Shown here: one piece after another, positions 5,855-27,368 of the stretch
Position numbering within the stretch: position 1 is the first letter of the stretch
Layout of the letters: every line of letters begins with the position of its first letter
Assembly (NCBI GenBank): GCA_002102555.1
Contig: MCFL01000098.1
Location: 18,973-82,972 of the forward strand
DNA from: Catenaria anguillulae PL171
Lineage: Eukaryota > Blastocladiomycota > Blastocladiomycetes > Blastocladiales > Catenariaceae
Direction of reading: 5' to 3'
DNA length: 64,000 bases
The notes under the pieces: generated by a model
Seen by the model: the letters and a program-made list of their open reading frames with translations, nothing else
Databases searched by the model: none
Told to the model about the DNA's origin: nothing
Program-made: the position numbers and the translations under genes

Positions 5855-6807
5855 GGTGGTTGGTTCGTTTGGTCGTCGTTGGTGGTGCACGAAATCAGTG
5901 TGACATGAACATGAACAGAGTCGTCGTTCTTGTGCAAAGCTCAGAGAGCCGAGTGGTGATGATGAGGTTTTCAAGTTGTGGCCGACCCGCCCATCGTGCG
6001 AGACACGAGACACGCACGACAAATGCGTTGGGGGCACGATCGATGGAAAACGGACCGTTCTTCCGAACGTCATTGACGGTTGCACCTCACGTGAACAAGC
6101 TGATCAGAGCATGCAGTCATCCCTGCCGTCTGGCGACTCGCACTCGCAGCGCAGCAACTGCACATAAAGAAACAAGAGGTTTTGGCATCCCATCGGTGGA
6201 ATCTTTGTACTCCAGTCGGCGTATTGTCTGACGCTCGCTCCATCGCTCGCTCGTTCTGTGTGTTTTCTCAACACATCACTACGGCGCCTATCCCAAAGCA
6301 GTTTCAGCTATCCGTCCTGACGAGAACCAAGTTCGCCCAGCCTTTCATCGCTCGTTTTTCTCCTCTCGCCTGCCGACCATTGTTTGTCAATGTCTAGTGG
6401 TCGCGGGCTCCAGAGGGGGCGACATTTTCTCCACGCATACTGACCCTCAACCAAAATTGCTAGTCTTCGTATCATGATGTGAACGGAACGGCACGATCGA
6501 AGCAATCCAGGCTGTACGGGACCCGTACCCGGAACTGCTAATCTTGTTGCCCACTTTGAGGGCCTCGAGACCCTGGCCTTTCCTGTGTCGCCCTTTATGG
6601 GGGTCTCCAGTCGCACTGGGTTGTCAAAACGACTGCCAACAGTACGAGGCACCTCAAGGCCTTGCCAGGCTGGTGCATGATGTCTCTGTCATACGGTCGT
6701 TGCCTGCGCCCTCTTGCCTTCAGTGGCCTTGCAGCATTACCAAATGAGACATTACATTTCTTGCTCTTTTATTTTATGGAATCTCTCTGACAGTCCAACA
6801 CTACATC
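5855..6807. other. Intergenic between divergent FAH and octanoyltransferase genes
   Basis: 953 bp separating two outward-facing genes, so it must hold both promoters. I see no RNA gene, repeat or convincing ORF. Confidence 0.6.
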
Positions 6808-7861: not shown

Positions 7862-7996
7862 GCGGGATTGAGCTCAAAGGTATCGATCGGCACAATAGGA
7901 TAGGTCAGAAACATTGTCCAATCATGTATTCAGTCGGCACAATCCGAATGCAATTCTCCATCTTCCTCTCTGCCTCCTCGCCGACTACCAGAAGAC

Positions 7997-10900
7997 TCAA
8001 GTACTTGATCCAACATGATGGGTCGTTGACACAAACACGGCGCTCATGACATCCAATGTTTCGATCAACTCGGACTTGGCCACCACCTCCACTTGCGCGA
8101 GATACTGCTTTTCCTTTGCGCGCCGCTCCATGGACCACCGCCGCGGGTCCGCGTCGCGTTCCAAGTTGCCAGCGTCTGTCGACGGCGATGAGACGCCGGT
8201 TGCCGAACTGTTTAGCAGCGTGGCAGACGGATCCGTGGCGCCAATGTCACCTAAGCAGCAGCAAACACCTGGATTGTTAGAATCATGCAAATGGCCACGA
8301 CGTGAGTAACCAAAGTCCAAGATGAATATACCTTTCCCAGTTGCAGACGCGGCCGTTCCCGACTTTTGCCCACCAGCCGCACCCACATTCGATCCACTCC
8401 CACCCACCGCGCCTTTCCCACCTTGAGCGCCGGCCGCTCCAGTTTGCTTGCCACCGCCCCCCGCCGCCGCACTTGCACCGCCAGCCTTTCCCGCATCTTT
8501 CCCAGCCCCCGCCCCACCCGCCCCCGCCCCTGCCCTTTTCCCTCCATCTGCTGCCGACGCCCCCGTCCCCGCGGCCTTACCAACCTTATCGCCTTTCCCA
8601 CCGGCCCCTTGCTCTGCGGCGGCGGCCGCCGCACTTGCCTGCATCAAGGCGGCCGCCTGTGCAAGCGCCTCCTCCTCTGCCGCACTCGGCGTCGTGAACT
8701 TGCGCACGCACGCGCGGCTGGCTCCTGCTGGCAAACCGTGCGATTTGCGGGCCATGTGAAACTTGTCGCCGAGTTTGTCGAGCAGGTCGACGAGGAGCGA
8801 CCGTGCGGCCGTGTACAGGAGCGATGACGGGGAGCACGACGACGTGGCGGCGGCGGCGGCTGCCGAGCCGATGGCTGTTACGGGACGCAAAGGGGCCAAG
8901 AGCGTGTCTGCCGTGTCGGATGGTGCGCTACTGGCAGCGTCCGCTGCACAAGTAGCCGACATCGATCCGGTCGATGACTGCAGTGTGGACGTGGGCGAGG
9001 GCGACGTCAGAATGGCGTTGAGGTCGCGCAGCACTTGCTCGTGCGCATCGGGGTCGAGAATGAATTGGGCAGAGTCGAGGATGGATTGGATGCGAAAGTC
9101 CCACGTGGATGAGGATACGAGTTGCAGGTGAACCATTACAATGTTCGAGTAGAGGGCGGAAAGGCGAGCCGCGAGTTTGCGCGAGTAGGTCACCTAGAGC
9201 GGCAGTAGAGTGTCCAGTCTAGTTTAAGTCGTCCACGTGCAAGCTCCTTGTTGACAGTATCGTGTACCTTGAATGCCTTGTTGCGCTCTTCAAACAGCTT
9301 GGCCTCGGCATCCATGGGATTGACTTGAGCGCGGTGCTCCACCAGTGTCCAAACAGAATCGAGGACAAGGTCGATTGCGGACTTTGCGGCAGACTCCGCC
9401 CTGAGGCAATTAAAACGATTGATGAATGAGACACGGAGATGCTGTCCAAAGGGGGGCAAGCGTACGCTTTTCGAAGCAAACGGCGATTCCATTCGTCCCT
9501 GGCTTGAGCAAAATGGTCCTCCTCGGTACACACGCCCTATCAAATGACACGTTGAACGAGTAAGCCCATCCAAACGAATACGACAAGGGAATGAAACCAG
9601 CTGCACGGACGTAAAGCCTCAGTGTCAGCCACGGGCATGCGTCTGGCCCACTGCCCCCGCTTTGCTCCTTGTCCACAGGATATCCTGGCCTTGTCACCAG
9701 CTCGTAATCGTGCACGTGAATGCCTGGCTCATCCGCCTTGAACGTGACATGGAAATCAAAGGCCGACTGTGGTAAAATGACCCCACGTCGCACGGGCAAG
9801 TAAAACACCTCTTGATTGCTGGCAGTTGGGGTTCCCATGGCCGTGGGCGGCACAGGTACGCGCAAATTGTGCACGCGACGGACCCACTCGAAATGAACGA
9901 CAGTGTTGAATGGATTGTACACGGTAAACGCCGAAGCAACCACCTCGTTGACGGATGCATCAAATGCCAGGTACGACGTGGATATGGACAGCCCCGTTGA
10001 TGGTTGACTGGCTGCACCTTGCACTTCGCTCATGGATGTATGCGCCGGCTCAAACGCACCCGCGCACTCGGCAAGCCGTGACAGGCGCATATCCAACTCT
10101 TTCCTGATGGCACTCTCACTTGCGTTCTCCCCGCCTGCGCGACGCCCAATCCGATGGCCCGCAACCTTGACTCCTGCCAACCTCACCACTGGCTCCATCA
10201 TGTCCTCGGTCACCTGTGGATTGCTCGGATCCAGCTGGCGTATCTCCCGATACAGATCCTTGCGACGTGTGGCAAGGTAATCGAGCTCGGGCTTGCGCTC
10301 GCACACGTGCACGGGCGTGTCTGGATTGACCACACGCTCAAGCGGGCGAGGGCCGGCTTTTGGAAGTGGAAAGTTGAGACCAAACAGGTCATGGCCAATT
10401 TGCAGGCCACACATCCAAAAGCCATATTTGGATTCGAGGACTTTAATGGATTCGTCAATGAGTTGGCGGGTTTCGACATAGGATCGGTACGAGGCGGTCG
10501 ATGCCATGACAAGCGAATGCGGTTGCTGTGTAAACCATATTGGCATGAAGTGATGAGAATGATTCACGACGTGGGGAAACTAAATGAGGAGATAGCGTAC
10601 ACGACCAAGTTTATGGGCGAGCTTGCGCTCCGTGGATTTCCATTGGTCAAAGTGTCGTTGCCAGTTGCGCAGCGCGCGAGTTTGGCGCAATGTTCTTTGA
10701 TTGTCGATCGTTAGGGCGGTATTTCGTGGTAATCGTACAATAGAATAGGATATGGGAATGACAGCCGTACATGTAGTTCTCAAAGACCATCGCCTTTTCC
10801 TCATCCATCGGATCCAATTCTCCGCCAGCGACTGGATTGCTCATCTTCTTGCTGCCGCCAAATTTGCCAAACTGTAACACGGATCCAAACAAGCCCGACT

Positions 10901-11336
10901 TATCCAACGCAAACGTCTCGCTCTCAGATCGCATGGGCTCTCCCAAATCCACGGGATGCCAAGCTGGCAGAGCCAGCGACGAGTGGCTGTAAATCGACCG
11001 CCGCGGTGACGAGAACCCAGAGTGATTCGGGATCCCAAGTCCAAGTGAATGTGTGCCAGCCGCCGCGCTCGATGGTCGTGTTCCACTGGCCGTTGCAGGA
11101 ATAGACGCCAGCGGCGCGTTGGCGTGGAGCGAGCGGCCATGCATACCGACGTTGGAGCTCGTGGGCCGCCGAGAGCTTGCGATGGAGCGCATGCCAGACG
11201 CGGCGGCCGCGTGGTCACCAGGCGGCGGAGGCGCAGCAAATGCCGAGTCAAAGAGGTCGTCTGGATTGACAAGTTGCAGGGAGTTCATGTTGCCACTGAT
11301 TTGGTTCATCAATTTCATCCATGTGCCCAGCTCCAT
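7997..11336 (-). CDS. MYCBP-associated protein (MYCBPAP)-like ciliary central-apparatus protein
   Basis: Multi-exon gene matching the MYCBPAP family, an axonemal central-apparatus component in flagellates. Exon 1 starts at 11336 (MELGTWMKLMNQ). It is followed by a short exon with RALRNWQRHFDQWK near 10650-10720, then a long exon holding SYRSYVETRQLIDESIKVLE, YGFWMCGLQIGHDLFGLNFP and an Ig/ASH-like stretch (YNPFNTVVHFEWVRRVHNL, VILPQSAFDFHVTFKADEPG, FIPLSYSFGWAY). Exons near 9250-9420 (IDLVLDSVWTLVEHRAQ) and 8330-9190 follow, and the last, after an intron at about 8255-8330, ends at 7997. A segment of about 150 residues at 8340-8700 is almost only Ala/Gly/Lys/Ser, probably disordered. Exon borders are my GT/AG picks. 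The presence of this gene is the best sign that the organism builds flagella. Confidence 0.8.
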
Positions 11337-12486
11337 CGGACCTGACAGATCAAGCCTTTGTGTGTAAACCTGATCTCAGCCCATGCTTGTGGGAAACGTC
11401 ACGGTACTAAACGTAGTATTTTGGGTCCGACGCGTCAACCTGTCGATGAATCATCAACCAACAATTGCGGACGCGCTCACCAAAATAATCATGTCAGCGT
11501 CAAATAATGTAGCTAATGTACAGAGAACAAAGTAGAAAGCTCCCAGCAACATAGATCATTAACCAAGTTTTTAACCAGAGAACAACAGCGTTCACGCATG
11601 CAAAATGGTGAGTCAAGCCACCTTTCGATTTCTGGCATGTGCAACGATGGGCCTTGTCACGGTCTATTCGTTCTTGAAAAGCGTGTGTTTCGCGGAACGT
11701 CTGAAGAACGATGTCCGACCCATTGCTTCATTCTCACTTGATTGTTCATGGTGCACCGGCCAGCACGACAATATCAAAGCAGGACTTCCATCAAAGTACA
11801 GCATGCAGCAGTTTGCAAGCGCGTCATTAGAGTAGGTTTAGGAGAGAACGACCTGTTATTCGGTCCCTGCGCTCACCCGACAAGAATGTGAACTTTTTCA
11901 GGTCACAAGTCGCCCATGCTCTCGTGCTGCTTGGACTCACATTCAACTGCGCGGGACTATTCAAATGGACCACTTGCTTCCAATGGAGAACATTCCTCAT
12001 CCGTGCGTATCGTACCGTTTTCAGTCGCCTTCTATCTCTAACTTCCACTAAAGAAGGGCCGGACAAAGTAGAATCAACGCTTCATATAATTGGAAGTCTG
12101 TGGATCACTCTCCATGTCCAAAACAAGATGCATTTTCGAACCTTGTGGTACATTGTGGCATTGATATCGTACGTTCAATGCTCCAGAAATTGATGTCCAC
12201 CCGGCCATACTTGTGTAAACAGAGGAATGCTGATTTTGCCATTGAAAATCAGTGGACCCATGACAATTGTGGAGCTCATCAGTCAAGTCAGGGCATTACA
12301 AGTCTTGAAACCAAGCGGCATTTGGTGAGCGGTGGAATGGGTTCCATTGAAGCGAGAGTGCCATCCAAACGTTCAATGTTTTGCTCAGTCAGCCGGACGA
12401 GGCGTGAACACAATACAAGCATTCCAGAAATTGCGTTATGACTCGACATTAAGTGTGTCTGGCTTGGTAAATAGTAAACGAATAAA
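11337..12486. other. Intergenic up to the left inverted-repeat arm, no gene seen
   Basis: 1.15 kb, more AT-rich than the neighbours. ORFs at 11605-11835 and 11888-12193 have no recognisable content. The stretch has no counterpart beyond the right arm, so the duplication ends sharply at about 12487. Confidence 0.55.
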
Positions 12487-13541
12487 GGGGGCGAATCCTG
12501 TGCTTGTGTCGGCGACGGGTGGTGATGTTGCGGGTAGCATGCTGGTGCAGTCGATGGCCCAGCTTGGGTTGGCGACGCATGGCGTGATTCAGGCGTGTGA
12601 TGCTCGCACGGCAGTGTATTCGGCATTGCACACGGGTCAAGGCGAGCTGGTGACTGCGGTTGCCGACATGGATATCCTCAAGTCGCAAGTGACGGCTGAT
12701 CGTGCGTGCAAGCTTGTTTCTGAGAGCCGTGCGTCACTTGTTGTGGTGGATGGCAACGTGGATGACAAGGTGTTTGGTGCCGTTGTGGACGCATGTGCAA
12801 CGTCCAAGGTTCCAGCGCCTGTGATTTTCGAGCCGACATCGATTCCGAAATCGACGGCGATGCCGTGGCTGCGAGGTGGGGTGACTTATGCGACGCCGAA
12901 TACGGCCGAACTGGAGGCGATGGCGAATGCGTGGCGGGAGGCGCACAATCGGGCGTGGCCCGAGCATGTCAATGACGCGCTTGTGCAAGAGATTCCGATT
13001 GAGGGTGTCAAGTCAGCGACGCAGGCGCGGCGGGCGACAATAACGAAGACGGTGGCATGGGGGTTCCCGAGCTGATTGATTCGGTCATGGGCTCGGCGCT
13101 GGTTGTTACGGATCGGATTCCACGGTTGCTCATCAAGTGTGGGGCCCAAGGTGTTGTGTACATTGAGCGGTTGACGCGGGATTTCCGCGAGCCCAAGGCG
13201 AGCTGGTCGATGGCGGGTGAGTTGAAGCCTTTGTTGCGCACGCGTCGTGGGCGTGGGCAGGCGCGTTCAAGGCGCTGGCGTCGGATGCCATGTATGTGGT
13301 TGGGTGGAGCCGGCCGCAAAAGGGGGGTGTCAAGGTGAAGAATGTGACTGGCGCTGGGGATACGCTTGTTGGTGTGTTTGTTGGTGGGTTGAGCGAGCAC
13401 GGGTGCGAGCTGGGACAGGTGCCAGCGATTGTGGCAAGTGCGAGGCGCGCAGCGGAACGGACGGTTGAGAGTGACTTGGCCGTGAGCGAGGAGTTGGGGC
13501 CAGATGTGTTTACAGGCGGCGCTGAGGAGGAGTCATCTTGA
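12487..13541 (+). pseudogene. Truncated, frameshifted copy of the pseudouridine kinase (PfkB) domain
   Basis: Nearly identical to the 3' end of the intact bifunctional gene at 24455-26911 (opposite strand), starting abruptly inside the kinase domain at ANPVLVSATGGDVAGSM. The pseudouridine-5'-phosphate glycosidase half and the first part of the kinase domain are missing, so there is no native start. Two single-base deletions relative to the right copy break the frame, near 13030 (GCGGCGG shortened) and near 13229 (TTTT to TTT). The GAGDTLVGVF catalytic loop and the C terminus remain, ending at the TGA at 13539-13541. A non-functional by-product of the inverted duplication is the simplest reading; the indels could also be sequence errors. 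Confidence 0.9.
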
Positions 13542-14092
13542 GTGTGTGAGTGACAGTGGCTGGGAAAAAAAAAAGAATTGTGGTTGTTGTTGTTGAGAGA
13601 CGGTTTCGATTGTGGCTCACATCGACAGGCTGCAGCACCTGTCTCACTTGACCACAGCATGGAATACCTAGCGAATAAAAACAGGGCAATCGAGTCTTTC
13701 ACGGTTGACTTTCCGACGCAATGGGACTGATACAGACGACGTGAGGCGGACGGGGATGTTTGCCATTGATATTCGGCTCGTTCTCGCACAACGGATCATG
13801 AAAAATCGGTAACGGCAGCCGCGATTCATCCACCGAACAGGTGAGTCTCGCTGTGTTCGCATCAAGCATACAATGTTATCACACTATCACACTCTGCTCG
13901 CTTTTGTGCGAACCATTTCTGGCGGTTCTTGATTGATGGGCTGTCGGCTGGATTGCGTCTAGCAGTGAGTAAGCGAGCGAGCGAGCCGATCAGAGCAGAA
14001 TAGAGTGTTTGTTGTTTAGAGAGTGTTTGTTGTTTAGGTATCCGTCGACATACTAAATACTTGTTGATGGGAGACGATCACTGGCATAACAA
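13542..14092. other. Spacer between kinase remnant and tRNA cluster
   Basis: No gene seen. Contains a short A tract (about 13566) and a direct repeat of about 17 bp (AGAGTGTTTGTTGTTTA, twice near 14003-14036). Mirrored in the right arm. Confidence 0.6.
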
Positions 14093-14174
14093 GGTGTGAT
14101 GGCCGAGTGGTCTAAGGCGTAGGTCTCAAGTTCCTATGGAGCAATCCGCGTGGGTTCGAATCCCACTCGCACCA
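14093..14174 (+). tRNA. tRNA-Leu (CAA), left-arm copy
   Basis: 82 nt with a seven-pair acceptor (GGTGTGA/TCGCACC), D arm TGGCCGAGTGG, anticodon loop CTCAAGT (CAA), a long class II variable arm and T arm GTGGGTTCGAATCCCAC. No intron, although fungal tRNA-Leu(CAA) often has one. A T run (TTTTT) follows as Pol III terminator. Base pair 31-39 is a T-T mismatch. Confidence 0.93.
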
Positions 14175-14341
14175 AACTGTTTTTGGTTCTTGTGTGTGTT
14201 TTTCTGAGGAAAGTCATGTTTTTTTTACCTTGCTGTCAGAGGTGCTCCCCACCCCCAACCAAGCCAAGCTGCAGGAGGTCCGCAAAAACAAGGGGTTGCT
14301 CGAAGCGCCAAAGTTCAGAGCAAGGGAATTGAAAAGCAAAA

Positions 14342-14413
14342 AGGTCCCGCCGAGGTTCGAACTCGGGTTACCGGATTCAAAGTCCGGGGTGATCACCACT
14401 ACACTACGGAACC
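14342..14413 (-). tRNA. tRNA-Gln (TTG), left-arm copy
   Basis: Acceptor GGTTCCG pairs with CGGGACC. Anticodon stem CCGGA/TCCGG with loop CTTTGAA gives anticodon TTG. T arm CCGAG-TTCGAAC-CTCGG. Opposite in orientation to the other four tRNA genes of the arm. Confidence 0.94.
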
Positions 14414-14574
14414 ACCTTCTTGAATACGACTGAGTGCAGTCTCTTTATATACTCATAGATTCCACTGGAAAGAAAGGCGAGCTCGCACGCCAGACAGAAT
14501 GCAGCGGCGAGAAGTAAGCAACAGCCTTTGTGTTTCATACAAGCGAAGTGCAGAAGAACAAAAGAAAAGGGGCT

Positions 14575-14765
14575 CGTTGGGAGGTGGAGGCCAAGTATCG
14601 ATCTCGAGACCTTGGGATAACCACAAAATTTGCCAAAGTTTGTTCCCGGCGACAGAGACAACAAGAAGAAACAAAAAGGAAAGAAAAAAGGTTCCTGGAG
14701 CGAGTTTCGGCGTTGCAGGCAAGGATCGATCTACGGGCCTCGGGATAACCGCAAAACTGTTCCAA
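14575..14765. repeat. Two related tRNA-like fragments within the tRNA cluster
   Basis: On the minus strand two segments about 120 bp apart share GGTTATCCC(A/G)AGG followed by (T/C)-rich sequence and GATCGAT, each flanked by T-rich runs. They resemble 3' halves of tRNA genes (variable loop plus box B-like GATCGATNC) but I cannot fold either into a full cloverleaf. They may be decayed tRNA copies or a small Pol III-derived repeat. Also present in the right arm (about 23230-23420). Confidence 0.4.
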
Positions 14766-14812
14766 ATGTGTTCTGGCGGAACATGTAAAGAATTGGGGAT
14801 TTGCAGCCAACA

Positions 14813-14884
14813 GGGGTTATAGCTCAGTGGTAGAGCAATCGACTGCAGATCGATAGGTCGCCGGTTCAACTCCGGCTGGCCCCT
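14813..14884 (+). tRNA. tRNA-Cys (GCA), left-arm copy
   Basis: Acceptor GGGGTTA/TGGCCCC, D arm AGCTCAGTGGTAGAGC, anticodon stem-loop TCGA-CTGCAGA-TCGA (GCA), T arm CCGG-TTCAACT-CCGG. Confidence 0.94.
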
Positions 14885-15034
14885 TGACGAGGAGAAACAT
14901 CAGTTCTTTTTGGTTTGGTCCTTGGAATGCGTTTTGCTCGCGGAAGGCGCCGATAGCTGATTTGGTGGCCACGGACAAACCTTGCTTTGGTGGACTTGGT
15001 GTGTTGGCGCGTGGCTTGAGACAAATGCACAGCT

Positions 15035-15107
15035 GGGGGTTTAGCTCAGATGGTAGAGCGCGCGCTTCGCATGCGTGAGGCCAGGGGTTCGATTCCCCTA
15101 ACCTCCA
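15035..15107 (+). tRNA. tRNA-Ala (CGC), left-arm copy
   Basis: Acceptor GGGGGTT/AACCTCC (one G-T pair), D arm AGCTCAGATGGTAGAGC, anticodon loop TTCGCAT (CGC), T arm AGGGGTTCGATTCCCCT. Confidence 0.93.
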
Positions 15108-15439
15108 ACCTAAGCTGATGTATTCTTTTTTTGTGTCGCATTGCATTTTGATCGATGTCTGTGCCAACGGTCTTTTTTTTGTATTTTTATATTTTTTGCG
15201 TGGCCAGATCAACCATGTCTGCCTGCAGCTTGATTACATCCATTTGCATTGCCATACATGCTTCCCTGACCCCCCCCATGGTCGCCCACTTTACGACTGA
15301 AGGGAAACAGGGGCAACGGGGGCGATGCCGCCCAGAATCGAACACCGGCCCGACGGAAGATGACATTTTTTCCCAAAACATTTTGGCCAAAATGAGCAAG
15401 GAGTATGCGGTGGCGAATTCTCGGCACCTCAAACAACAA

Positions 15440-15512
15440 GGTCCCGTGGCCCAATGGCTAAGGCGCCTGACTACGGATCAGGAGATCGGAGGTTCGAATC
15501 CTCCCGGGATCG
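15440..15512 (+). tRNA. tRNA-Arg (ACG), left-arm copy
   Basis: Acceptor GGTCCCG/CGGGATC, anticodon stem CCTGA/TCAGG with loop CTACGGA (ACG, read as ICG after deamination), T arm GGAGGTTCGAATCCTCC. Confidence 0.94.
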
Positions 15513-15584
15513 GCTTCAGGCCGAATTGCCTTTTTGTGGTTTCTTGTTTCGGTACATGGTGTTAATACACGAGACGACAAGGTC

Positions 15585-15611
15585 TTTTTTTTTTTTTTTT
15601 TTTTTTTTTTT
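15585..15611. repeat. 27-nt poly-T tract, left arm
   Basis: Uninterrupted T run. The matching A run in the right arm is at 22382-22408 and is also 27 nt, striking for such an unstable sequence. Confidence 0.9.
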
Positions 15612-15612
15612 G

Positions 15613-16302
15613 AAGTCTTGTCATGCATTTCCTGGTGGGACAGACGGCGGATTTCCAGTCATCAGACGAGGTTGATAATGATGACGATGAAGCCTTTATG
15701 TACTCATGTCAGCACCAACATGATCAACGCACTCATGGCACTCCACAGGCGTCGTTTGTGGACCAGGACACACCAGCAAAGAACGCACCCGCATGCGCAC
15801 GACAGCAACCCTGCTGCTGCCACTGTCTCGGCATACCATGTACACACCACCACTGCCAGCAGTACACCCGCACCGCACCGCACCGCACCGCACTGCACAG
15901 CCGGCCGGCCGGCCCATGGTTACGCTGCCACCCTCAATTGGCGAGTGATCCACGCAGAAAGCCGCTGCCCTCATGCAAAGTTTGCCAACGACCTCAAGTA
16001 CTCGTCTGCGACCGTGCACCAAATCACAACCGTGATCGGTATATCGCCCTCAATAATGCCGCCGTACGTTTACGTACGGGTCCTCGACCGACCGCACTCA
16101 CTCCCACCGCTTCTTGCAACACATCGTCCCGCTCCTCATCGAAGGCAAACCGTGACAACGTTGGCCCGTCATCCGACAGCGCAGGCCACACACCGCCACC
16201 GTAAGCACAGCACACATGGAAGGGGATGATGCCAACGACAAACAATCTGGTCATTATGTATATGTCGTTTGCTTGCTTGCTTGCTTGCTTGCTTGAACCG
16301 TA
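15613..16302. other. Arm segment with coding-like but unresolved frames
   Basis: Long open stretches exist in two plus frames (15534-16229, 15623-16204) but none is convincing: His/Pro/Thr-rich and in different frames. A (GCTT)n microsatellite lies at 16271-16295 and a palindromic TACGTTTACGTA near 16066. A short segment with the frame THSHRFLQHIVPLLIEGKP (16095-16152) looks coding and may be an exon of the frame that continues into the spacer. I could not join it. Confidence 0.35.
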
Positions 16303-17244
16303 TTGCCGCCTATACCTCACCCGCCTTGTCATTCTGCGTTCAGTCCAACAAGTTTGACCGCGTCACGGTTGCAAAGCGCGGGCAAATTTGACAAGAGCCG
16401 CGGCAACGGCATGGAGTATGTACTCGCGCACGGCATGCATCATGCATGGGGACGGGCGGCCTTGTCAACATGTTGGCTCCGGCTGCCGCCGCTCCCGTTC
16501 CAGCCAGGAAAACAACCCATCAGCACCAACCATGAAGCTGCACGTGTGGGGCAACCGCGCGCCAAGCGCCGTACGGCCGACGGCTCGTCGCCGCCGTTGG
16601 AATACCATGAAGCGGTCGAGCGAAGCAGGCAACAGCTTCGCGCGTCCATGTTTCAAACCCTCGGCGTGACCCCGCCAAACAATCCGTTCCCGAGCATCTT
16701 GGCGTCCACGCCGACTGAACCGACCCTCTCGCGCAGAGCAACCCGCGAGACTTCCACGGCTCCTGCGGCTTCTGCGGCTCCCGCGCCCTCGACCATCTCG
16801 GCATTCTTTGCGGCCCAGGAAGATATACCATTGTCGGGCGAGGATGGCGGCGAGGTGATGGCATTGACGTCGAGCGAGGAGGATGACACGACACCGACAA
16901 CCGCTCGCGTGGCAGGCATGTTGTTGGCGCCTGGCGCATTGGGCATTGGAGCCAGTGGCGGTGGGATCCTGGACGCATCCATGTCCTAGGAGTCCGAGGA
17001 AATTGGAGGTGCAAACGCGAGCGCGGGTGGTTCATCAAGCAACATTGCAGCGGCTGAATCTATCCGTACCTTACTGGGCGGCGGGTTAGCCAGTCAGGTT
17101 GCGTCACGCGGCCGTGCAAAGCGTCGGCGTAACCCTTCCGCGGAGGCCAACGAGAAAGCAGGTGGTAGCGATGTAGACGAGTTTGGCGGCATGTACGAGA
17201 TTGGTGGTGTGCAGTCAGAGACTTCTCGCCGCAGGTTGGCGTGA
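16303..17244 (+). pseudogene. Unidentified reading frame crossing left arm/spacer border, interrupted by in-frame TAG
   Basis: Not recognised. One frame runs from the arm (NHEAARVGQPRAKRRTADGSS) across the border at 16591 into spacer-specific sequence (PPLEYHEAVERSRQQLRASM, NNPFPSILAS, then Ala/Ser/Thr-rich) to a TAG at 16987-16989. The same frame stays coding-like after it (ESEEIGGANAS, SQVASRGRAKRRRNPSAEAN with a basic NLS-like patch, DVDEFGGMYEIGGVQSETSR) and ends at the TGA at 17242-17244. CAG to TAG would be a single change. No start was found; upstream exons should lie in the arm. It is either a decayed gene or a gene with one premature stop. Confidence 0.45.
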
Positions 17245-17262
17245 GTACGTGATGAGGCGGGC

Positions 17263-17560
17263 ATGCTGGTTGGTCGTTGGCGGTCGAGTTTGGGTCCTGT
17301 ACGGCGAGCGCATCATGGGTGCGGGAAGGAAACCGTTGCCCTTGAAGCGTGGATATGCTGGTGGTGGTCGAGTTTGCGTCGTGTGTGTGTGGCGAGAGTC
17401 TCGTGGGTGGTCGAGGTTGGGTCGTGTGTGGCGAGCGCATCATGGGTGCGGGAAGAAAACCGTTGCCCGTGAAGCGTGGGTATGCTGGCTGGTTGGTGGC
17501 GGTCGAGTTTGGCTCGCATGTGGCGAGCGTCTCGCGGGCGCGGGAAGATAACCGTTGTCT
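17263..17560. repeat. Three imperfect tandem repeats (80-130 bp)
   Basis: Units start near 17263, 17353 and 17481. Each carries TATGCTGG or ATGCTGG, then GGTCGAG(T/G)TTGG, GGCGAGCG(C/T)..., and GCGGGAAGA/GGAAACCGTTG. The middle unit has an internal duplication of the GTCGAG box. It lies just downstream of the TGA at 17242. Confidence 0.75.
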
Positions 17561-18709
17561 GTTTTTGAACTGCCTCCTACAATTACACTGTACCATGGAT
17601 GGATGAGACGCAGATGCGGTTATCTTTTAAAATAAATTCCTGTTTCATTGTCGTTTTTGCTCCTCATCGGTGGATCCACAATTGGGCGCGCAATTGAGCC
17701 ATTTCGTCCAGGCGTTCGGTCTCATGCTCAGGTATACAGAGCATTTTGGATACTGTCCGTCGGTCTGGGAATAGGCCACCACAGACGCGGCAAAACTCGC
17801 ATGAGAATCGGCTCCTCGGCATCACTTCGTGGAGCCATTGACCGCATGTGGACTGTCTCCTGCGAGCCCGCCCATCCATCCACTACATTATTGTTGATGC
17901 GAGCGGGTGGGACGGATGTGTCCGCGCAGAGTTTCACGATTTAGAGTTAGCTGAATAGTCGGTTGGAGAGTAACTAAGAGGATGTACGCTCACGATGATT
18001 CAGGAAGACCAATGTGAAGAATGGACGGTGTCGTCATGCTTTCTTGGATTGACATCGCATGTGCGCATTCACAGGTCGCTGTACGAAGGAGATACAACTT
18101 GACTCATTTCCTTCGACGGCTACCGAGCCTCGACATCCGCAGCCAGTGTACCGAATAGTATTCCGGTATCATTTCCCCATATATATCTTTGAGTTACACC
18201 TCTGTGGATTGTGTTCGCACTTTGACTCGCGTCTGTTGTCATGTTTGCTTGACCATCTTCGTTGCAGCAACGCATTTCTTTCATTCTCCTGGCAGCAACT
18301 TGGATTGCTTGCATGCGACATGGACATCACGTCATTTACGACTAAGTGCATTGTACTGGACGTTCAGAAACTGTTTAATCCGAGCGCCTGCTTTCCTGCC
18401 TGCAAACGAGAATTTCTTCGGTCAGTCACCAATACGACGCATGTGTACATCGATGTTCGCATGGTCCTCATGTCATCCACGACGTAATACATTACACTGC
18501 ACATGTAGAAACTGTTGCCCTCGTATTCCATGAAGGTAGAAACCGAGCCTCGCATGTCAATGCACGACATACCGACACAGAAAGAGGAATACGTCCAAAA
18601 GTTATATATTCTCCAAGAGAAAACAAACAAAAAAAGCAGGAGCCAAGGAAGAAAACAACACTACTCAATGCAAACTTGCGCCGACAAACAAATGAGCACA
18701 ATGACATGC
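17561..18709. other. Spacer non-coding stretch
   Basis: No gene supported. A minus-strand ORF at 17664-17879 has a Cys-rich FSCEFCRVCGG segment that looks slightly like a zinc-finger fragment but has no neighbours to join. The rest is AT-richer with no RNA gene. Confidence 0.45.
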
Positions 18710-21690
18710 TCACACCGTAGCATTCTGCTCCAAATGCTGCCCATAAATCACCTTCGCGGCAGTTTGCAGCTGCTTGTCGGTCAACGCCAACTCCTTCTTA
18801 TTCTTGCGCCATTCGTCCGCGACGGTTGTAATACCAACCGACCGCATCTTGCCCTGGGCGGCGACACTGTCCACGTCCATGCCATACACGTCCTTGACGA
18901 ACGGCGCAAAGAAGGCCTCCGTCACGTCCGCGCTGTACGGCATTGGCGTCTGCTCGAGGGTCTGAAAGTACGCGATTGCGTACGACAGGTTCCGGTCCGC
19001 GGCAACGGCCTTTGGCACGTTTTTCTGATGCCGCTTGCACACGGGAGCGCACGTGGCAGCAGGCGCGCCAAACTTGCAGCCGAAAACAAAGAGCGACGGC
19101 ACGTGGATAAGGTGGACACCTTTCGTATCGTCCAGCGTGGGCAACGTTGATGACGCTGGCGCGGGTGCCGGTGTGGGCGGTTGCGGCGGAGCAAGCATGG
19201 TGAGACACGACAGCGGCACTTGGCGCACTGTTTCTTGCACCACACCAGACAAACCCGGCAACGACTGAGGAGGGGAGAGCACGTATTCGATTGTTAGAAC
19301 CGCGAGCAGAGGAATGGGAGAGTGACACTTACAAGACATTGTGTACCGTTTGCGTGATCACCGTTGCCATTTGGCCGGTGCCCTGGGCCGTCGACGAGCC
19401 GGCCGACAAACGAAAACCAAAGCCGATTCCAGCAGGCAAACCCGACCCTTCCGTCGCAGGTGCAAGTCGCATTCCTGCCTCGCCGCCAAGCTACTCCCAC
19501 TGGCGACCCGTCTCATCCTCCCGTGTCGCGCTGGCGCCAGTAACACCACCCACACCCAACATGCCCGCCCCCGCCGTAGCCGAACTGCTCGACTGCACAG
19601 CACTCATACCCACTGACATGCCGCCTTCACCCGCGGTCGATGAAGACGCCGACGCTGAAACCATCGCCAACGACGACCGCTCTTGGTTCACGAATGGCAG
19701 AAGCGGCGCAATATGGTGGTCGATCGCATAAACCCGGGCCCGTCGCAGTTTGTGGCATTGGGGGCGGCGGCGGCGGCGGTTGGGACATGGCGAGGTTCAT
19801 GTGATGCACATGATTGAAAGTGAAGTGGTTACGCATCAGGTCAGGAATTTGGCGGCCGAGATCGTCCAAGGTGGGGATGCGCTCCGCCATGGACGCAACC
19901 TGCACGGCAATAGGGTCGATCTCGTCGCCGCTGGCTGTGCTTGCCACCGAGGTTGGCTAGAGGGGGTCGGCCGAGGTGGCGGACGTGGGCGAGTCAAGGC
20001 TGGGTGATGCCGACAACGTCGGGGACAAGTTGGTGAAGATGCCTTGGTGAAGGAATGCGGATGTGGACATGTGCATCGGCGACGACTCGTTCGCCGCCGT
20101 GGGTTGTTGTGCGGTTTGGCCGTGGGCTTCGGTCGGGAACCGCAAGTTTGAGCTTGCAGCCTTCATCATTGATGCATGGCCACGAGCCCGCAAGGCAGTC
20201 CATACCAGCTTGGCGTAACAGGGATCCATGGCGATTCTGCGGATGGTGTGAGAATTTTGAGAATAGAGAATAGTTCTTGGTGAGCACCGATGATGCTCTG
20301 AGCGACAAGTCTTGTGCAGCGTGGGACGAGAGCGCTTCGTCGAATGTTGAGACGCGATTGGTCGGTGTAACAAACGACGAGAGACGTGGAGACGTGCTTC
20401 CAGAGAAGAGAAGGGCGAAGCGTACGAGGAAGAAGAAGCCAGACTTTTCACCCATGCCGGTCGGAAGCTCCATGGAAATGTTTCCGGCCTTGAGCGCTTT
20501 GAAATCCTCACGGATTTGTTTTTGCATCCTGGCAGTGGATTTGCCGTACATCCTGCGACCGGCGTACTCGGCAGCGTAGTTGCCTGCAGTCTGGATCAGA
20601 CCCAGGTCGCTGCTGCGTGACTGTGAGTACATGGAAGGCAGGCAGCGGTGTGTGTCAGCGGTGGCGTCTGTGGGAGGAAGCAGGCCGGGCAGAAACATGT
20701 GTACTTACCTTCGTGCGGTCGGCCTTGGCGTCCAAACCCTCGTCCTCTTCCAATTCTGAATCCAGCCCGGCGACCGTCCCTGCGTCCTCGCCGCGTAAGA
20801 TCTCGACGGGCGGAATCCAGATCTCATTTGGCTGGACTAAGCGCCTGCTGGTCGAAGCGCCTGGAGCGGCTGAGGCCGCTGTACCTGCCGCTGTACAAGC
20901 AGCGGAGGGGGCCGCTGAGCCTGCTGCAGAGGACTGTTTGCCCTTGCCGCGATTGCCGGTACCGCGTTTGGCTTTGGGGGCAGTGGCGAGAGGTGGGGTC
21001 GGCGCGGCAGATTCGGACGCATTGGCGACGGCATCGGCGGCAACGTCTGTGTTCGAAGTGCGGTTGACACTGGCAGCCCTTATGCTGCCGGTCGAATTTG
21101 GAGTGGAGATCGGTTTGGGGTGGTCGCGACCCGTACTCGACGCGCAACCTGGAATGGACAAAAGAGTCAGACACGGCAGGCAGATTCACGGGCGTTGAGA
21201 AACAAAGAAAACAGACTGCTCATTGGCCTCGGTGACTCTGTGTGTGTTGCGCTTGCACATGTCCTTCGAGTCTGGCCTGGTGCTTGGTGTTGAGCGTCGC
21301 GTACGTCTTGTCAGCTTCGTGCAGCAAGATTGCCCGTTCGTCTGCTTGAAACCCAACTGGATGCTTGGGCCCGGGCTCGTTCCACGCAGGCCAAATGAAC
21401 TGCGACGAGCCGTCGGCCGTACGGCGCTTGGCGCGCGGTTGCCCCACACGTGCAGCTTCATGGTTGGTGCTGATGGGTTGTTTTCCTGGCTGGAACGGGA
21501 GCGGCGGCAGCCGGAGCCAACATGTTGACAAGGCCGCCCGTCCCCATGCATGATGCATGCCGTGCGCGAGTACATACTCCATGCCGTTGCCGCGGCTCTT
21601 GTCAAATTTGCCCGCGCTTTGCAACCGTGACGCGGTCAAACTTGTTGGACTGAACGCAGAATGACAAGGCGGGTGAGGTATAGGCGGCAA
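18710..21690 (-). pseudogene. Unidentified multi-exon gene filling the spacer, interrupted by in-frame TAG codons and a frameshift
   Basis: Not recognised. From the right-arm border the frame TADGSSQFIWPAWNEPGPKH continues through HEADKTYATLNTKHQARLEG. An intron follows, then an exon at about 20707-21150 (Ala/Pro/Lys-rich, VQPNEIWIPPVEILRGEDAG) with a clean GTAAGT donor. Then come SDLGLIQTAGNYAAEYAGRR and MYGKSTARMQKQIREDFKAL, an intron, and MDPCYAKLVWTALRARGHAS. A TAG at 19957-19959 interrupts, and the frame resumes with DEIDPIAVQVASMAERIPTL and a Pro7 run. A 1-bp shift near 19735 leads to YAIDHHIAPLLPFVNQERSS. A second TAG sits at 19491-19493, after which LGGEAGMRLAPATEGSGLPA and MATVITQTVHNVL continue. 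A GTAAGT intron (19270-19337) joins the last exon, with SLFVFGCKFGAPAATCAPVC and LTDKQLQTAAKVIYGQHLEQ, ending at 18710. Either decayed or affected by sequence errors. Confidence 0.45.
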
Positions 21691-22381
21691 TACGGTTCAA
21701 GCAAGCAAGCAAGCAAGCAAGCAAACGACATATACATAATGACCAGATTGTTTGTCGTTGGCATCATCCCCTTCCATGTGTGCTGTGCTTACGGTGGCGG
21801 TGTGTGGCCTGCGCTGTCGGATGACGGGCCAACGTTGTCACGGTTTGCCTTCGATGAGGAGCGGGACGATGTGTTGCAAGAAGCGGTGGGAGTGAGTGCG
21901 GTCGGTCGAGGACCCGTACGTAAACGTACGGCGGCATTATTGAGGGCGATATACCGATCACGGTTGTGATTTGGTGCACGGTCGCAGACGAGTACTTGAG
22001 GTCGTTGGCAAACTTTGCATGAGGGCAGCGGCTTTCTGCGTGGATCACTCGCCAATTGAGGGTGGCAGCGTAACCATGGGCCGGCCGGCCGGCTGTGCAG
22101 TGCGGTGCGGTGCGGTGCGGTGCGGGTGTACTGCTGGCAGTGGTGGTGTGTACATGGTATGCCGAGACAGTGGCAGCAGCAGGGTTGCTGTCGTGCGCAT
22201 GCGGGTGCGTTCTTTGCTGGTGTGTCCTGGTCCACAAACGACGCCTGTGGAGTGCCATGAGTGCGTTGATCATGTTGGTGCTGACATGAGTACATAAAGG
22301 CTTCATCGTCATCATTATCAACCTCGTCTGATGACTGGAAATCCGCCGTCTGTCCCACCAGGAAATGCATGACAAGACTTC

Positions 22382-22408
22382 AAAAAAAAAAAAAAAAAAA
22401 AAAAAAAA
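22382..22408. repeat. 27-nt poly-A tract, right arm
   Basis: Mirror of the T tract at 15585-15611, with equal length. Confidence 0.9.
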
Positions 22409-22480
22409 GACCTTGTCGTCTCGTGTATTAACACCATGTACCGAAACAAGAAACCACAAAAAGGCAATTCGGCCTGAAGC

Positions 22481-22553
22481 CGATCCCGGGAGGATTCGAA
22501 CCTCCGATCTCCTGATCCGTAGTCAGGCGCCTTAGCCATTGGGCCACGGGACC
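22481..22553 (-). tRNA. tRNA-Arg (ACG), right-arm copy
   Basis: Same sequence as the left-arm gene at 15440-15512, in opposite orientation; intact acceptor, anticodon and T stems. Confidence 0.94.
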
Positions 22554-22886
22554 TTGTTGTTTGAGGTGCCGAGAATTCGCCACCGCATACTCCTTGCTCA
22601 TTTTGGCCAAAATGTTTTGGGAAAAAATGTCATCTTCCGTCGGGCCGGTGTTCGATTCTGGGCGGCATCGCCCCCGTTGCCCCTGTTTCCCTTCAGTCGT
22701 AAAGTGGGCGACCATGGGGGGGGGTCAGGGAAGCATGTATGGCAATGCAAATGGATGTAATCAAGCTGCAGGCAGACATGGTTGATCTGGCCACGCAAAA
22801 AATATAAAAATACAAAAAAAAGACCGTTGGCACAGACATCGATCAAAATGCAATGCGACACAAAAAAAGAATACATCAGCTTAGGT

Positions 22887-22959
22887 TGGAGGTTAGGGGA
22901 ATCGAACCCCTGGCCTCACGCATGCGAAGCGCGCGCTCTACCATCTGAGCTAAACCCCC
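22887..22959 (-). tRNA. tRNA-Ala (CGC), right-arm copy
   Basis: Same sequence as 15035-15107, opposite orientation; all stems intact. Confidence 0.93.
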
Positions 22960-23109
22960 AGCTGTGCATTTGTCTCAAGCCACGCGCCAACACACCAAGT
23001 CCACCAAAGCAAGGTTTGTCCGTGGCCACCAAATCAGCTATCGGCGCCTTCCGCGAGCAAAACGCATTCCAAGGACCAAACCAAAAAGAACTGATGTTTC
23101 TCCTCGTCA

Positions 23110-23181
23110 AGGGGCCAGCCGGAGTTGAACCGGCGACCTATCGATCTGCAGTCGATTGCTCTACCACTGAGCTATAACCCC
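23110..23181 (-). tRNA. tRNA-Cys (GCA), right-arm copy
   Basis: Same sequence as 14813-14884, opposite orientation; all stems intact. Confidence 0.94.
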
Positions 23182-23580
23182 TGTTGGCTGCAAATCCCCA
23201 ATTCTTTACATGTTCCGCCAGAACACATTTGGAACAGTTTTGCGGTTATCCCGAGGCCCGTAGATCGATCCTTGCCTGCAACGCCGAAACTCGCTCCAGG
23301 AACCTTTTTTCTTTCCTTTTTGTTTCTTCTTGTTGTCTCTGTCGCCGGGAACAAACTTTGGCAAATTTTGTGGTTATCCCAAGGTCTCGAGATCGATACT
23401 TGGCCTCCACCTCCCAACGAGCCCCTTTTCTTTTGTTCTTCTGCACTTCGCTTGTATGAAACACAAAGGCTGTTGCTTACTTCTCGCCGCTGCATTCTGT
23501 CTGGCGTGCGAGCTCGCCTTTCTTTCCAGTGGAATCTATGAGTATATAAAGAGACTGCACTCAGTCGTATTCAAGAAGGT

Positions 23581-23652
23581 GGTTCCGTAGTGTAGTGGTG
23601 ATCACCCCGGACTTTGAATCCGGTAACCCGAGTTCGAACCTCGGCGGGACCT
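23581..23652 (+). tRNA. tRNA-Gln (TTG), right-arm copy
   Basis: Same sequence as 14342-14413, opposite orientation; followed by a TTTTT terminator. Confidence 0.94.
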
Positions 23653-23820
23653 TTTTGCTTTTCAATTCCCTTGCTCTGAACTTTGGCGCTTCGAGCAACC
23701 CCTTGTTTTTGCGGACCTCCTGCAGCTTGGCTTGGTTGGGGGTGGGGAGCACCTCTGACAGCAAGGTAAAAAAAAACATGACTTTCCTCAGAAAAACACA
23801 CACAAGAACCAAAAACAGTT

Positions 23821-23902
23821 TGGTGCGAGTGGGATTCGAACCCACGCGGATTGCTCCATAGGAACTTGAGACCTACGCCTTAGACCACTCGGCCATCACA
23901 CC
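23821..23902 (-). tRNA. tRNA-Leu (CAA), right-arm copy
   Basis: Same sequence as 14093-14174, opposite orientation; class II variable arm intact, no intron. Confidence 0.93.
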
Positions 23903-24454
23903 TTGTTATGCCAGTGATCGTCTCCCATCAACAAGTATTTAGTATGTCGACGGATACCTAAACAACAAACACTCTCTAAACAACAAACACTCTATTCTGC
24001 TCTGATCGGCTCGCTCGCTCGCTTACTCACTGCTAGACGCAATCCAGCCGACAGCCCATCAATCAAGAACCGCCAGAAATGGTTCGCACAAAAGCGAGCA
24101 GAGTGTGATAGTGTGATAACATTGTATGCTTGATGCGAACACAGCGAGACTCACCTGTTCGGTGGATGAATCGCGGCTGCCGTTACCGATTTTTCATGAT
24201 CCGTTGTGCGAGAACGAGCCGAATATCAATGGCAAACATCCCCGTCCGCCTCACGTCGTCTGTATCAGTCCCATTGCGTCGGAAAGTCAACCGTGAAAGA
24301 CTCGATTGCCCTGTTTTTATTCGCTAGGTATTCCATGCTGTGGTCAAGTGAGACAGGTGCTGCAGCCTGTCGATGTGAGCCACAATCGAAACCGTCTCTC
24401 AACAACAACAACCACAATTCTTTTTTTTTTTCCCAGCCACTGTCACTCACACAC

Positions 24455-26911
24455 TCAAGATGACTCCTCCTCAGCGCCGCCTGTAAACACATCTGGCCCC
24501 AACTCCTCGCTCACGGCCAAGTCACTCTCAACCGTCCGTTCCGCTGCGCGCCTCGCACTTGCCACAATCGCTGGCACCTGTCCCAGCTCGCACCCGTGCT
24601 CGCTCAACCCACCAACAAACACACCAACAAGCGTATCCCCAGCGCCAGTCACATTCTTCACCTTGACACCCCCCTTTTGCGGCCGGCTCCACCCAACCAC
24701 ATACATGGCATCCGACGCCAGCGCCTTGAACGCGCCTGCCCACGCCCACGACGCGTGCGCAACAAAAGGCTTCAACTCACCCGCCATCGACCAGCTCGCC
24801 TTGGGCTCGCGGAAATCCCGCGTCAACCGCTCAATGTACACAACACCTTGGGCCCCACACTTGATGAGCAACCGTGGAATCCGATCCGTAACAACCAGCG
24901 CCGAGCCCATGACCGAATCAATCAGCTCGGGAACCCCCATGCCACCGTCTTCGTTATTGTCGCCCGCCGCCGCCTGCGTCGCTGACTTGACGCCCTCAAT
25001 CGGAATCTCTTGCACAAGCGCGTCATTGACATGCTCGGGCCACGCCCGATTGTGCGCCTCCCGCCACGCATTCGCCATCGCCTCCAGTTCGGCCGTATTC
25101 GGCGTCGCATAAGTCACCCCACCTCGCAGCCACGGCATCGCCGTCGATTTCGGAATCGATGTCGGCTCGAAAATCACAGGCGCTGGAACCTTGGACGTTG
25201 CACATGCGTCCACAACGGCACCAAACACCTTGTCATCCACGTTGCCATCCACCACAACAAGTGACGCACGGCTCTCAGAAACAAGCTTGCACGCACGATC
25301 AGCCGTCACTTGCGACTTGAGGATATCCATGTCGGCAACCGCAGTCACCAGCTCGCCTTGACCCGTGTGCAATGCCGAATACACTGCCGTGCGAGCATCA
25401 CACGCCTGAATCACGCCATGCGTCGCCAACCCAAGCTGGGCCATCGACTGCACCAGCATGCTACCCGCAACATCACCACCCGTCGCCGACACAAGCACAG
25501 GATTCGCCCCCGGGCACACACGGTGCAACGCCTCCGTCATGTTGCGTGCAACACCTCCTGGTGTTTGCGTTACACGCCCAGGGTACGACGAACCAGACAC
25601 AAGTTCGGCAGAGGCGAGGGTCGACGTGATATCCATGACAAGGCCGCCAATGAGCACAGGACGCTTCTTGTTTTTGGTATCGTTGTTGTTGGTTGCCGGT
25701 GTGAACGCGGATGCAACTGCACTTGGGGAGGCTCCTGCGGACGCAACCCGCATCCGCGCCAAGGCAACCGCAATCTGCGCCCCAACCTTTGCATTGTTGC
25801 GAATCAATCCAATATTCGCTTCCAGGCTCTTTCCACCCGTCAATTCTGCCACCCGCGCGAGCAGAAACGGCGTTGCATCTTTGCCCGAAATGCCTTGCTC
25901 ATGCGACTCGCGCACCGCCTGGTCGACGGCACGTTGAATGAGATCTGCATCGGCGGCGTCTGGGTTGGGCACGGCAATCACGACGCCCGAGCGCAGATTG
26001 AGCGCGCGGTTGTGGTAAATGATGGAGGCACATTCGCCGATCGTGGGCGAGTGATTGGGGGAGACAAGGCCCGAGGTTGGCGTGTAAAAGGCAGGGAAGT
26101 CTGGAGTTGGAGCGTGGGTCGTGACAGTGACACCTTGGGTTTCCTAGATGGGACGTCCAAAAGTCAGTTTCGGTCATCAGCCTGCCCAAAATGAAGGACG
26201 TACAAGATATTCAAGAGTTTTCGGGATATCGAGAATGGACTTGACACCGGCGCAGATAACGGCGACCGGCGTGCGACCCTAGATGTATAATGCATCCTTA
26301 CGTTAGTCACGGTAAATGAAGCTCACCCACGTTTCGGCCAACAAGCTCTGACAACGCACCAGCTCGGTCAAATCGGCACTGACATCAAACGTCGTCTCGG
26401 CTCCGCGATGGACACCACCAATCCCGCCCGTCACAAAAACGTCAATCCCAGCCTTCTCGGCAACCACCATGGTTCCACTGACGGTCGTGGCTCCATTGCC
26501 CTTGCGTGCCAACACGGGCGCGAAGTCCCTCCTTGACGTCTTTGTAACCTGATCCCGCTTGAGCTGTCCCAAATGCATGAGCGCCTCGTCCGTCAATCCA
26601 ACATGCACTTGGCCATCGAGAATGGCAATCGTGGCAGGCTCTGCGCCGTTGTTGCGGATGATGCGCTCGACATCGCGGGCCGTGTCGACGTTTGCCGGAA
26701 AGGGCATGCCGTGGGTGATGATGGTGGACTCGAGGGCAACCACGGGCTTTTGCGAGTCAAGGGCCGCACGCACGGCGGGCGAGTACACAAATTGGGTTGC
26801 GGGTGTCGACAGGTGGCGGCGACCAACAACGGATCGCGTGAGGGCAATGCCCTGGCGGGTGCTCCAGCCAGCCATGAGCAGGCGGCGGGCGGCGGTCGAC
26901 GGGAATAACAT
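24455..26911 (-). CDS. Bifunctional pseudouridine-5'-phosphate glycosidase / pseudouridine kinase
   Basis: Degrades pseudouridine: the C-terminal PfkB-family kinase makes pseudouridine 5'-phosphate and the N-terminal glycosidase (PsuG/indigoidine synthase A-like) cleaves it to uracil and ribose 5-phosphate. Three exons, 26327-26911, 26204-26278 and 24455-26143, all phase 0, give about 782 residues. Glycosidase marks: VVALESTIITHGMPFPANVD, ATIAILDGQVHVGLTDEAL, SRRDFAPVLARKGNGATTVS, VFVTGGIGGVHRGAETTFDV, GVKSILDIPKTLEYL, NLRSGVVIAVPNPDAADADL. Kinase marks: PVLIGGLVMDITS, TPGGVARNMTEALHRV and the catalytic loop NVTGAGDTLVGVFVGGL. The first 35 residues (MLFPSTAARRLLMAGWSTRQ...) are Arg/Ser-rich with no acidic residue, a plausible mitochondrial presequence. 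The 3' half lies in the right arm and is duplicated, broken, at 12487-13541. Confidence 0.94.
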
Positions 26912-27368
26912 TGTGGATGTTGTGTCGTGTGTGTAAATATCCGTCGGGAGTTGTATTGCGGGACTGCTTCAGTTGCACATTCCCTGAGAGACAGAGAGGC
27001 GTTCTGTTGATTGTCCTTGCTCATCATGCTGTGGCTGTGTCACTCTCAGGCAATTTGTGTCGAAAAGCTCAGACCGCCAACGAATTCCATTTTCAACGCG
27101 GCACGGCACTCAAGCTCAAAGAGAGATACTCGCAGTTAAATACATGAGTCAAAATACAGTCAAGGTTTACTTACTTGGTGAATACGGCATGAGATACTCG
27201 GATACAAGAGGAGGTGGGAGACAAAAAGAAAAGCCGAAAGCGAAACAAAACAAATGTGTTTGGTGAAGAACCTCGTCATCAGAACACTTCCATCCGAGGT
27301 GTATCCGCTCTCGCTCGCCAATTCCGGCCCCCATTCAACACTCCTTCGCACGCCGTTGCACTCCACGC
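26912..27368. other. Intergenic, no gene seen
   Basis: 5' flank of the pseudouridine gene and 3' flank of SNU13. Purine-rich near 27210-27250; no RNA gene. Confidence 0.6.

Follow-up and report, generated by a model that had tools for sequence, protein, structure and literature searches.

Inverted repeats carrying tRNA gene clusters in Catenaria anguillulae: probable arm-to-arm gene conversion and occasional spacer inversion

Recombination between inverted repeats leads to gene conversion and, with a crossover, to inversion of the sequence between them. Fungal mating-type loci undergo flip/flop switching via such repeats, and the inverted repeats of plastids, which bear transfer RNA (tRNA) genes, show conversion and occur as two isomers. 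Here we analyse a 64,000-nucleotide stretch (the window) of the genome of Catenaria anguillulae PL171, a fungus parasitic on nematodes, in which two 4.1-kb arms in inverted orientation, each with five tRNA genes, flank a 4.8-kb spacer, together with similar repeats on other contigs of the same assembly. Among the closest described systems are the palindromes of the mammalian X and Y chromosomes, for which passages of one study describe arms that are more than 99% alike and kept so by arm-to-arm conversion, a single-copy spacer and arm genes in two copies, and also unstable spacers, part of a spacer in one species being arm in another (PMC8981503). In fungi, part of a report on Saccharomycopsis schoenii describes a mating-type macro-palindrome in which two arms of 8.5 kb with 99.98% identity enclose a spacer of 2,019 bp (PMC13148404), and part of an account of Schizosaccharomyces osmophilus has centromere cores recognised by near-perfect inverted repeats and 33% of tRNA genes located at centromeres (PMC10085805).

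The window locus resembles the sex-chromosome palindromes in its arms, 99.85% identical around a unique spacer, and, with its sister loci, in that arms are more alike within a chromosome than between lineages, at every one of 352 informative sites. As far as the passages on X/Y palindromes go, sequence that is spacer in one version and arm in another is common to both as well, being seen here in C321 against C167. The differences lie in size, with arms of 0.6–5.5 kb instead of tens of kilobases, and in content and setting: tRNA genes rather than testis genes, and at least three such repeats on one contig of a fungus. Like mating-type inverted repeats, those described here are fungal and nuclear and flip or frame a spacer, but the genes concerned are tRNA genes and not MAT genes; no mating-type domain was found above the Pfam cut-off in the six open reading frames (ORFs) of the window spacer, a search in which short exons could be missed. 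Plastid inverted repeats, similarly tRNA-bearing, differ from these nuclear, dispersed and short ones.

The window lies on contig C456 (82,972 bp), part of an assembly of 41 Mb in 457 contigs that we take to derive from PacBio sequencing, a point on which passages of PMC8298701 are silent; eight stretches taken from it contain no N. BLASTN of the window against itself pairs 12487..16591 (left arm, plus strand, 4,105 bp) with 25511–21402 (right arm, 21402..25511, minus strand, 4,110 bp) at 99.854% identity over 4,110 columns, a match far exceeding chance. The arms are separated by a spacer of 4,810 bp (16592..21401; guanine–cytosine (GC) content 0.571). The original prediction, made from the letters of the window, had placed arms and spacer at these positions and five tRNA genes in each arm; self-BLASTN bears out the former, and ARAGORN and the Rfam tRNA model, which agree on five genes per arm, the latter. 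It had also described the arms as differing by single-base homopolymer changes alone. Five single-base gaps, all in the left arm, do account for most of the difference, and to these must be added one substitution that went unmentioned, T/C at 13006/24992.

Contig C133 (39,972 bp) bears a second version of the locus: its match to C456 starts in the outer right arm, at 22948 of the window, and extends to the end of C133, with 96.4% identity over 23,262 columns. Its spacer is oriented as in C456 (93.0% and 93.7% in two pieces) and is framed by an inverted repeat of its own (8234–9273 against 15936–14898, 99.6%; 1–216 against 17202–16987, 99.5%), the inner edge of which agrees with that of C456 within about ten bases. 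Between these two pieces, about 1 kb of the C133 left arm is absent, with it tRNA-Ala and more than half of tRNA-Arg; the place is taken by 8 kb of different sequence (C133:218-8233), in which three ORFs were scanned with no Pfam match above cut-off. As C133 starts within the left arm, it offers no left outer flank for comparison. Where four of the five left-arm gaps of C456 were compared with the C133 right arm, the latter has a base at 13026, 13229 and 14218, in a letter differing from that of the C456 right arm; at 13564 both C456 arms have a longer A run than C133. The C456 left arm is thus the odd one at three of the four gaps, which consensus error may explain; at the substitution, C133 sides with the C456 left arm. 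Because C133 shows the same spacer and inverted repeat with its own arm sequence, an assembly chimera, one of three origins offered by the original prediction, is unlikely. A very recent origin, the second, is likewise disfavoured, the repeat being common to two diverged contigs and having a diverged homologue elsewhere, whereas the third, ongoing conversion, is well supported, with arms that are alike within a contig and about 6% apart between C456 and C133.

An alignment of all four arms, over 1.1 kb common to C456 and C133 plus a further 217 bp, gives this contrast in full. Left and right arms differ by substitution at 0 of 1,104 positions in C456 and 3 of 1,039 in C133, against 62–65 of 1,024 between contigs. 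All 74 informative sites group the arms by contig, none grouping them by arm or in a crossed fashion (62:0:0 in the 1.1-kb segment, 12:0:0 in the 217-bp segment). The same pattern holds at a locus with six tRNA genes per arm, present on C13 (84,073–96,704; inverted repeat 4,740 bp, 99.94%; spacer 3,152 bp) and on C45 (28,117–41,988; 4,653 bp, 99.98%; spacer 4,567 bp), with 3/4,740 and 0/4,652 substitutions within contigs, 246–247 in about 4,510 between them and informative sites at 245:0:0, and at a further locus on C167 and C321 (29:0:0 and 4:0:0 in two segments; 33 of 33 by contig). Grouping by contig therefore extends to 352/352 sites over five segments of three loci. In an old repeat without exchange, sites should group by arm; the observed grouping argues for exchange between the arms of one chromosome. 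For this argument it is enough that C456 and C133 are two diverged lineages, allelic or duplicated. Dividing substitutions within contigs by those between them gives 0 for C456 and for C45, about 1% for C13 and about 5% for C133 (1.1-kb segment), from which we infer that the last homogenisation at these four was probably recent compared with how far the versions have diverged; C321 and C167 have higher values, of about 6–25%. Overall arm identity is 99.5–99.6% in C133, 99.3% in C321, 97.9–98.8% in C167 and, in a shorter repeat at 470 kb of C13, 99.8%.

Evidence for inversion comes from C13 and C45, which exit the repeat at the identical base on both outer sides, and their repeats therefore descend from one founding inverted duplication. 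Their flanks are collinear, on the left in two plus-strand pieces (C45 20,001–28,000 against C13 75,278–83,956, 95 and 98%) and on the right in one (C45 42,001–45,000 against C13 96,717–99,681, plus strand, 95%), and match each other alone, short repeats and a tRNA aside. The spacers, by contrast, align on the minus strand, at 94.4% over 3,161 columns, and are thus inverted relative to the flanks. The C45 left arm does not stop where the C13 arms have their inner edge but continues into sequence following the C13 right arm; at the right inner end of C45, the arms pair to about 145 bp short of the C13 inner edge, and about 1.3 kb has no C13 spacer counterpart apart from a weak 72% match. Inversion of the spacer by recombination between the arms would be the simplest account. 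The proposal that the spacer could flip, so that the locus exists as two isomers, is supported at this sister locus; at the window locus both contigs have the same orientation. Of the two pairs that can be read, one is flipped, and a single assembled contig represents each orientation.

C321 and C167, which carry the same tRNA types in the same order as the window locus on arms that are about 71–80% like the window arms outside short tRNA matches, were considered as another inversion case. Their strict spacers match on the minus strand (1,891 columns, 97.3%) and their right flanks on the plus strand (4,777 columns, 97.4%). This case was withdrawn, as the flank is also present on C400 and C319; found on four contigs, it may itself belong to a longer arm. 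Both C321 and C167 end in the left arm, and C321 has one tRNA-Gln that ARAGORN could not type. The start of C456 (1–2874) holds another tRNA cluster (Gln, Leu), 97–99% identical to C167, C319, C321 and C400, from which C456 diverges at 2874, a rearrangement or insertion breakpoint.

Taking these observations together, we put at roughly 0.78 the probability that C. anguillulae harbours palindromic tRNA islands, that is, old inverted repeats whose arms are homogenised by intrachromosomal gene conversion and whose spacers are occasionally flipped by a crossover. Replication forks can stall at tRNA genes, and breaks or stalled forks at these strongly transcribed RNA polymerase III genes would initiate repair, for which the opposite arm, either of that chromatid or of its sister, would serve as template. 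Conversion would then even out the arms, and resolution as a crossover would invert the spacer. The benefit, if any, may be a doubled tRNA dosage and the purging of tRNA gene mutations. A further step, which we offer only tentatively and think rather doubtful, is that the palindromes are generated and maintained through the action of the tRNA genes themselves: fork stalling and breaks at polymerase III clusters would repeatedly yield inverted duplications, arm-to-arm repair would preserve both tRNA sets, and much of the tRNA complement would come to lie in self-correcting, flipping islands.

Arms that are identical within contigs and different between them are likewise predicted if each chromosome copy underwent its own recent inverted duplication, with no conversion. 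We consider this unlikely given that C13 and C45 have outer breakpoints in common to the base, that the C45 left arm crosses the C13 inner edge into the opposite end of the spacer and that C456 and C133 share their inner edge so closely; moreover, the arms of C133 (99.5 and 99.6%) and of C167 (97.9–98.8% by BLAST, with substitutions at 0.09–0.10% in two aligned segments) are near-identical on both sides of 7–10 kb inserts in one arm. An assembly artefact, in which the left arm is a fold-back or the product of a graph path using one arm twice, we judge quite improbable. It would fit with the confinement of all five single-base gaps to the left arm, as weaker consensus would give, with a left flank (7500–12486) that has no second copy anywhere in the assembly, and with four contigs (C133, C321, C319 and C400) that begin or finish inside such repeats. 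A sequencing or assembly fold-back, however, would have no unique spacer, whereas the window has one of 4,810 bp, and C133 is a second contig with arms of its own, placing its inner edge at almost the same point as C456 although the arms differ by about 6% in substitutions; the shared outer breakpoints of C13 and C45 speak against an artefact as well.

Arms and core of a few kilobases and tRNA clusters within near-perfect inverted repeats look like the centromeres of fission yeast, but these occur once per chromosome, whereas here there are several repeats per contig, adjoining or inside protein genes. The window repeat itself cuts into a protein-coding gene, its spacer has a GC content like that of the surroundings, and a 450-kb part of C13 has three or more inverted repeats with tRNA genes. 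On this last ground the centromere reading, very improbable in our estimation, was rejected. A site-specific invertase acting on the arms, as FLP acts on the repeats of the yeast 2-micron plasmid, would explain the inverted spacer of C13 and C45, and an ORF in the C13 spacer looked by eye like a tyrosine recombinase. For this ORF, Pfam gave nothing up to E 0.1 and PDB sequences nothing below E 0.58, its only homologues are two hypothetical proteins of the same species, and the C13 stretch has no match of at least 100 bp to C456, C321 or C167. Nor would a site-specific enzyme alone homogenise arms of 4–5 kb. With its candidate empty in Pfam and PDB sequences, we rejected the invertase, which we hold to be the most remote of these explanations.

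Several observations weigh against homogenised, flipping islands as a general account. The C321 left arm is closer to C400 (0/2,303 substitutions) than to its own right arm (7/2,287), a comparison outside the 352-site count, and this closeness fits only if the chromosome of C321 continues in C400 or if arms on different contigs exchange sequence as well. Homogenisation is not universal, since a tRNA inverted repeat at 517–531 kb of C13 has 5.4-kb arms that are merely 86.5% identical. GC-biased conversion is not seen: arm GC (0.544; 0.516–0.518; 0.532) is lower than spacer GC (0.571; 0.588–0.593; 0.582), whereas the passages on X/Y palindromes report elevated arm GC (PMC8981503), and at the window locus the flanks span 0.556–0.583, with no elevation in the arms. 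The comparison is of assembled contigs, in which arm differences below about 1% could be levelled by consensus calling. No inverted isomer was found at the window locus, C456 and C133 sharing their spacer orientation, and the case for inversion is drawn from a single contig pair. The other loci were found through tRNA-cluster matches, which limits what they can say on any enrichment of palindromes at tRNA genes across the genome. Evidence against a strict need for both tRNA sets comes from C133, whose left arm lacks tRNAs, and from C167, whose left-arm tRNA-Cys holds a retrotransposon.

The frequency and spacing of tRNA copies were surveyed with exact patterns for four tRNAs, which miss variant copies and returned 42 copies of Arg-ACG, 20 of His-GTG, 17 of Gln-TTG and 22 of Met-CAT. 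Where neighbouring copies of a tRNA share a contig and lie no more than 20 kb apart, they are inverted in 23 of 32 cases and direct in nine (inverted to direct, 8:7 for Arg, 6:0 for His, 3:2 for Gln and 6:0 for Met); these pairs are not independent, as some loci are present in two contig versions and a repeat holds several tRNAs. The Rfam tRNA model, in a first pass, proposed 1,333 candidates, with 63 scored and 61 listed. Across 292,542 bases, themselves chosen for tRNAs, the sole inverted pair of at least 200 bp outside tRNA-bearing repeats is one of 288 bp (E up to 1e-10). Entamoeba-type tandem tRNA arrays consist of head-to-tail units; the window locus differs in being inverted, although C178 and C341 do show tandem spacing, their tRNA genes recurring every 5.66 kb or so in what looks like a head-to-tail array.

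Function of the tRNA genes is favoured by their sequences. All five are intact in both window arms, and tRNA-Gln(TTG) is identical in 12/12 copies typed by ARAGORN in the stretches covered, a thirteenth, on C321, being without one base, amid surroundings that are about 71–80% alike or less between loci. In the left arm the genes are tRNA-Leu(CAA) (14093..14174, plus), tRNA-Gln(TTG) (14342..14413, minus), tRNA-Cys(GCA) (14812..14885, plus), tRNA-Ala(CGC) (15034..15110, plus) and tRNA-Arg(ACG) (15440..15512, plus). The right arm holds tRNA-Arg(ACG) (22481..22553, minus), tRNA-Ala(CGC) (22884..22960, minus), tRNA-Cys(GCA) (23109..23182, minus), tRNA-Gln(TTG) (23581..23652, plus) and tRNA-Leu(CAA) (23821..23902, minus). 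In each arm, tRNA-Gln is on the strand opposite to the other four.

The right arm ends within a gene for an Indigoidine_A/PfkB fusion of the pseudouridine glycosidase/kinase type (24455..26968, minus strand; at least two open frames, 24455–26143 and 26303–26968), the product of which is 100% identical to a PL171 protein of 771 aa. The 3′ part of the gene lies inside the arm and, because the arm boundary falls inside the gene, the left arm holds the PfkB end alone, as a truncated copy (12487..13541, plus strand; the PL171 protein is named ‘Ribokinase-like protein, partial’) that, compared with the right arm, lacks single bases at 13026 and 13229. The six ORFs in or overlapping the spacer have no Pfam match above the curated cut-off, one match, to DUF2388 (E 0.082), lying below it, and a protein search with the spacer matched C456 itself only. 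Direct repeats, in units of about 80–140 bp that are 79–80% alike, occupy 17259–17557 of the spacer. The sole other inverted pair of at least 200 bp within the window (42106–42390/47953–48240; 288 bp, 94%; self-BLASTN, E up to 1e-5) is without tRNA genes. A U6 small nuclear RNA match (Rfam) at 60162–60275 agrees with the window being nuclear eukaryotic DNA.

Inserts, some of them putative, lie in or near several of the tRNA repeats. On C167, a non-long-terminal-repeat retrotransposon (494–10540; Exo_endo_phos, RVT_1 and RNase_H domains) sits inside the 5′ end of the left-arm tRNA-Cys and is bounded by a duplication of about 18 bp, which suggests a tRNA-directed insertion. The same left arm contains an insert with a Plavaka transposase match (C167:11507-18260), around which the arms are 97.9–98.8% identical by BLAST. 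On C13, about 680 bp absent from C45 (81556–82235) lie at the 5′ end of a tRNA-Ala, with flanking matches that overlap by 17 bp, as for an insertion with target duplication, which this segment would resemble (coordinates only). The 566-bp repeat of C13 (470–479 kb) has a counterpart on C192 with about 0.4 kb between the inverted segments, against 3.1 kb in C13 (again coordinates only), and the longer spacer may reflect entry of a mobile element into a more compact palindrome; the C13 spacer is in part a repeat also present on C403, C426, C112, C199 and C252. C165 has inverted pairs too, known from their coordinates.

Among the titles and openings of abstracts listed in searches of the open-access literature, we recognised no account of palindromic tRNA loci in Catenaria or other blastoclads, which is weak evidence of absence given that most subscription papers lie outside it. 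How dispersed tRNA gene copies are kept identical is a long-standing question. In C. anguillulae, arm-to-arm conversion can be distinguished from exchange between chromosome copies because each copy has its own version of the repeat, and the short arms would let rates of conversion and inversion be measured in a laboratory strain. Gene-converting palindromes, best known on sex chromosomes, would thereby be extended to the tRNA genes of an early-diverging fungus.

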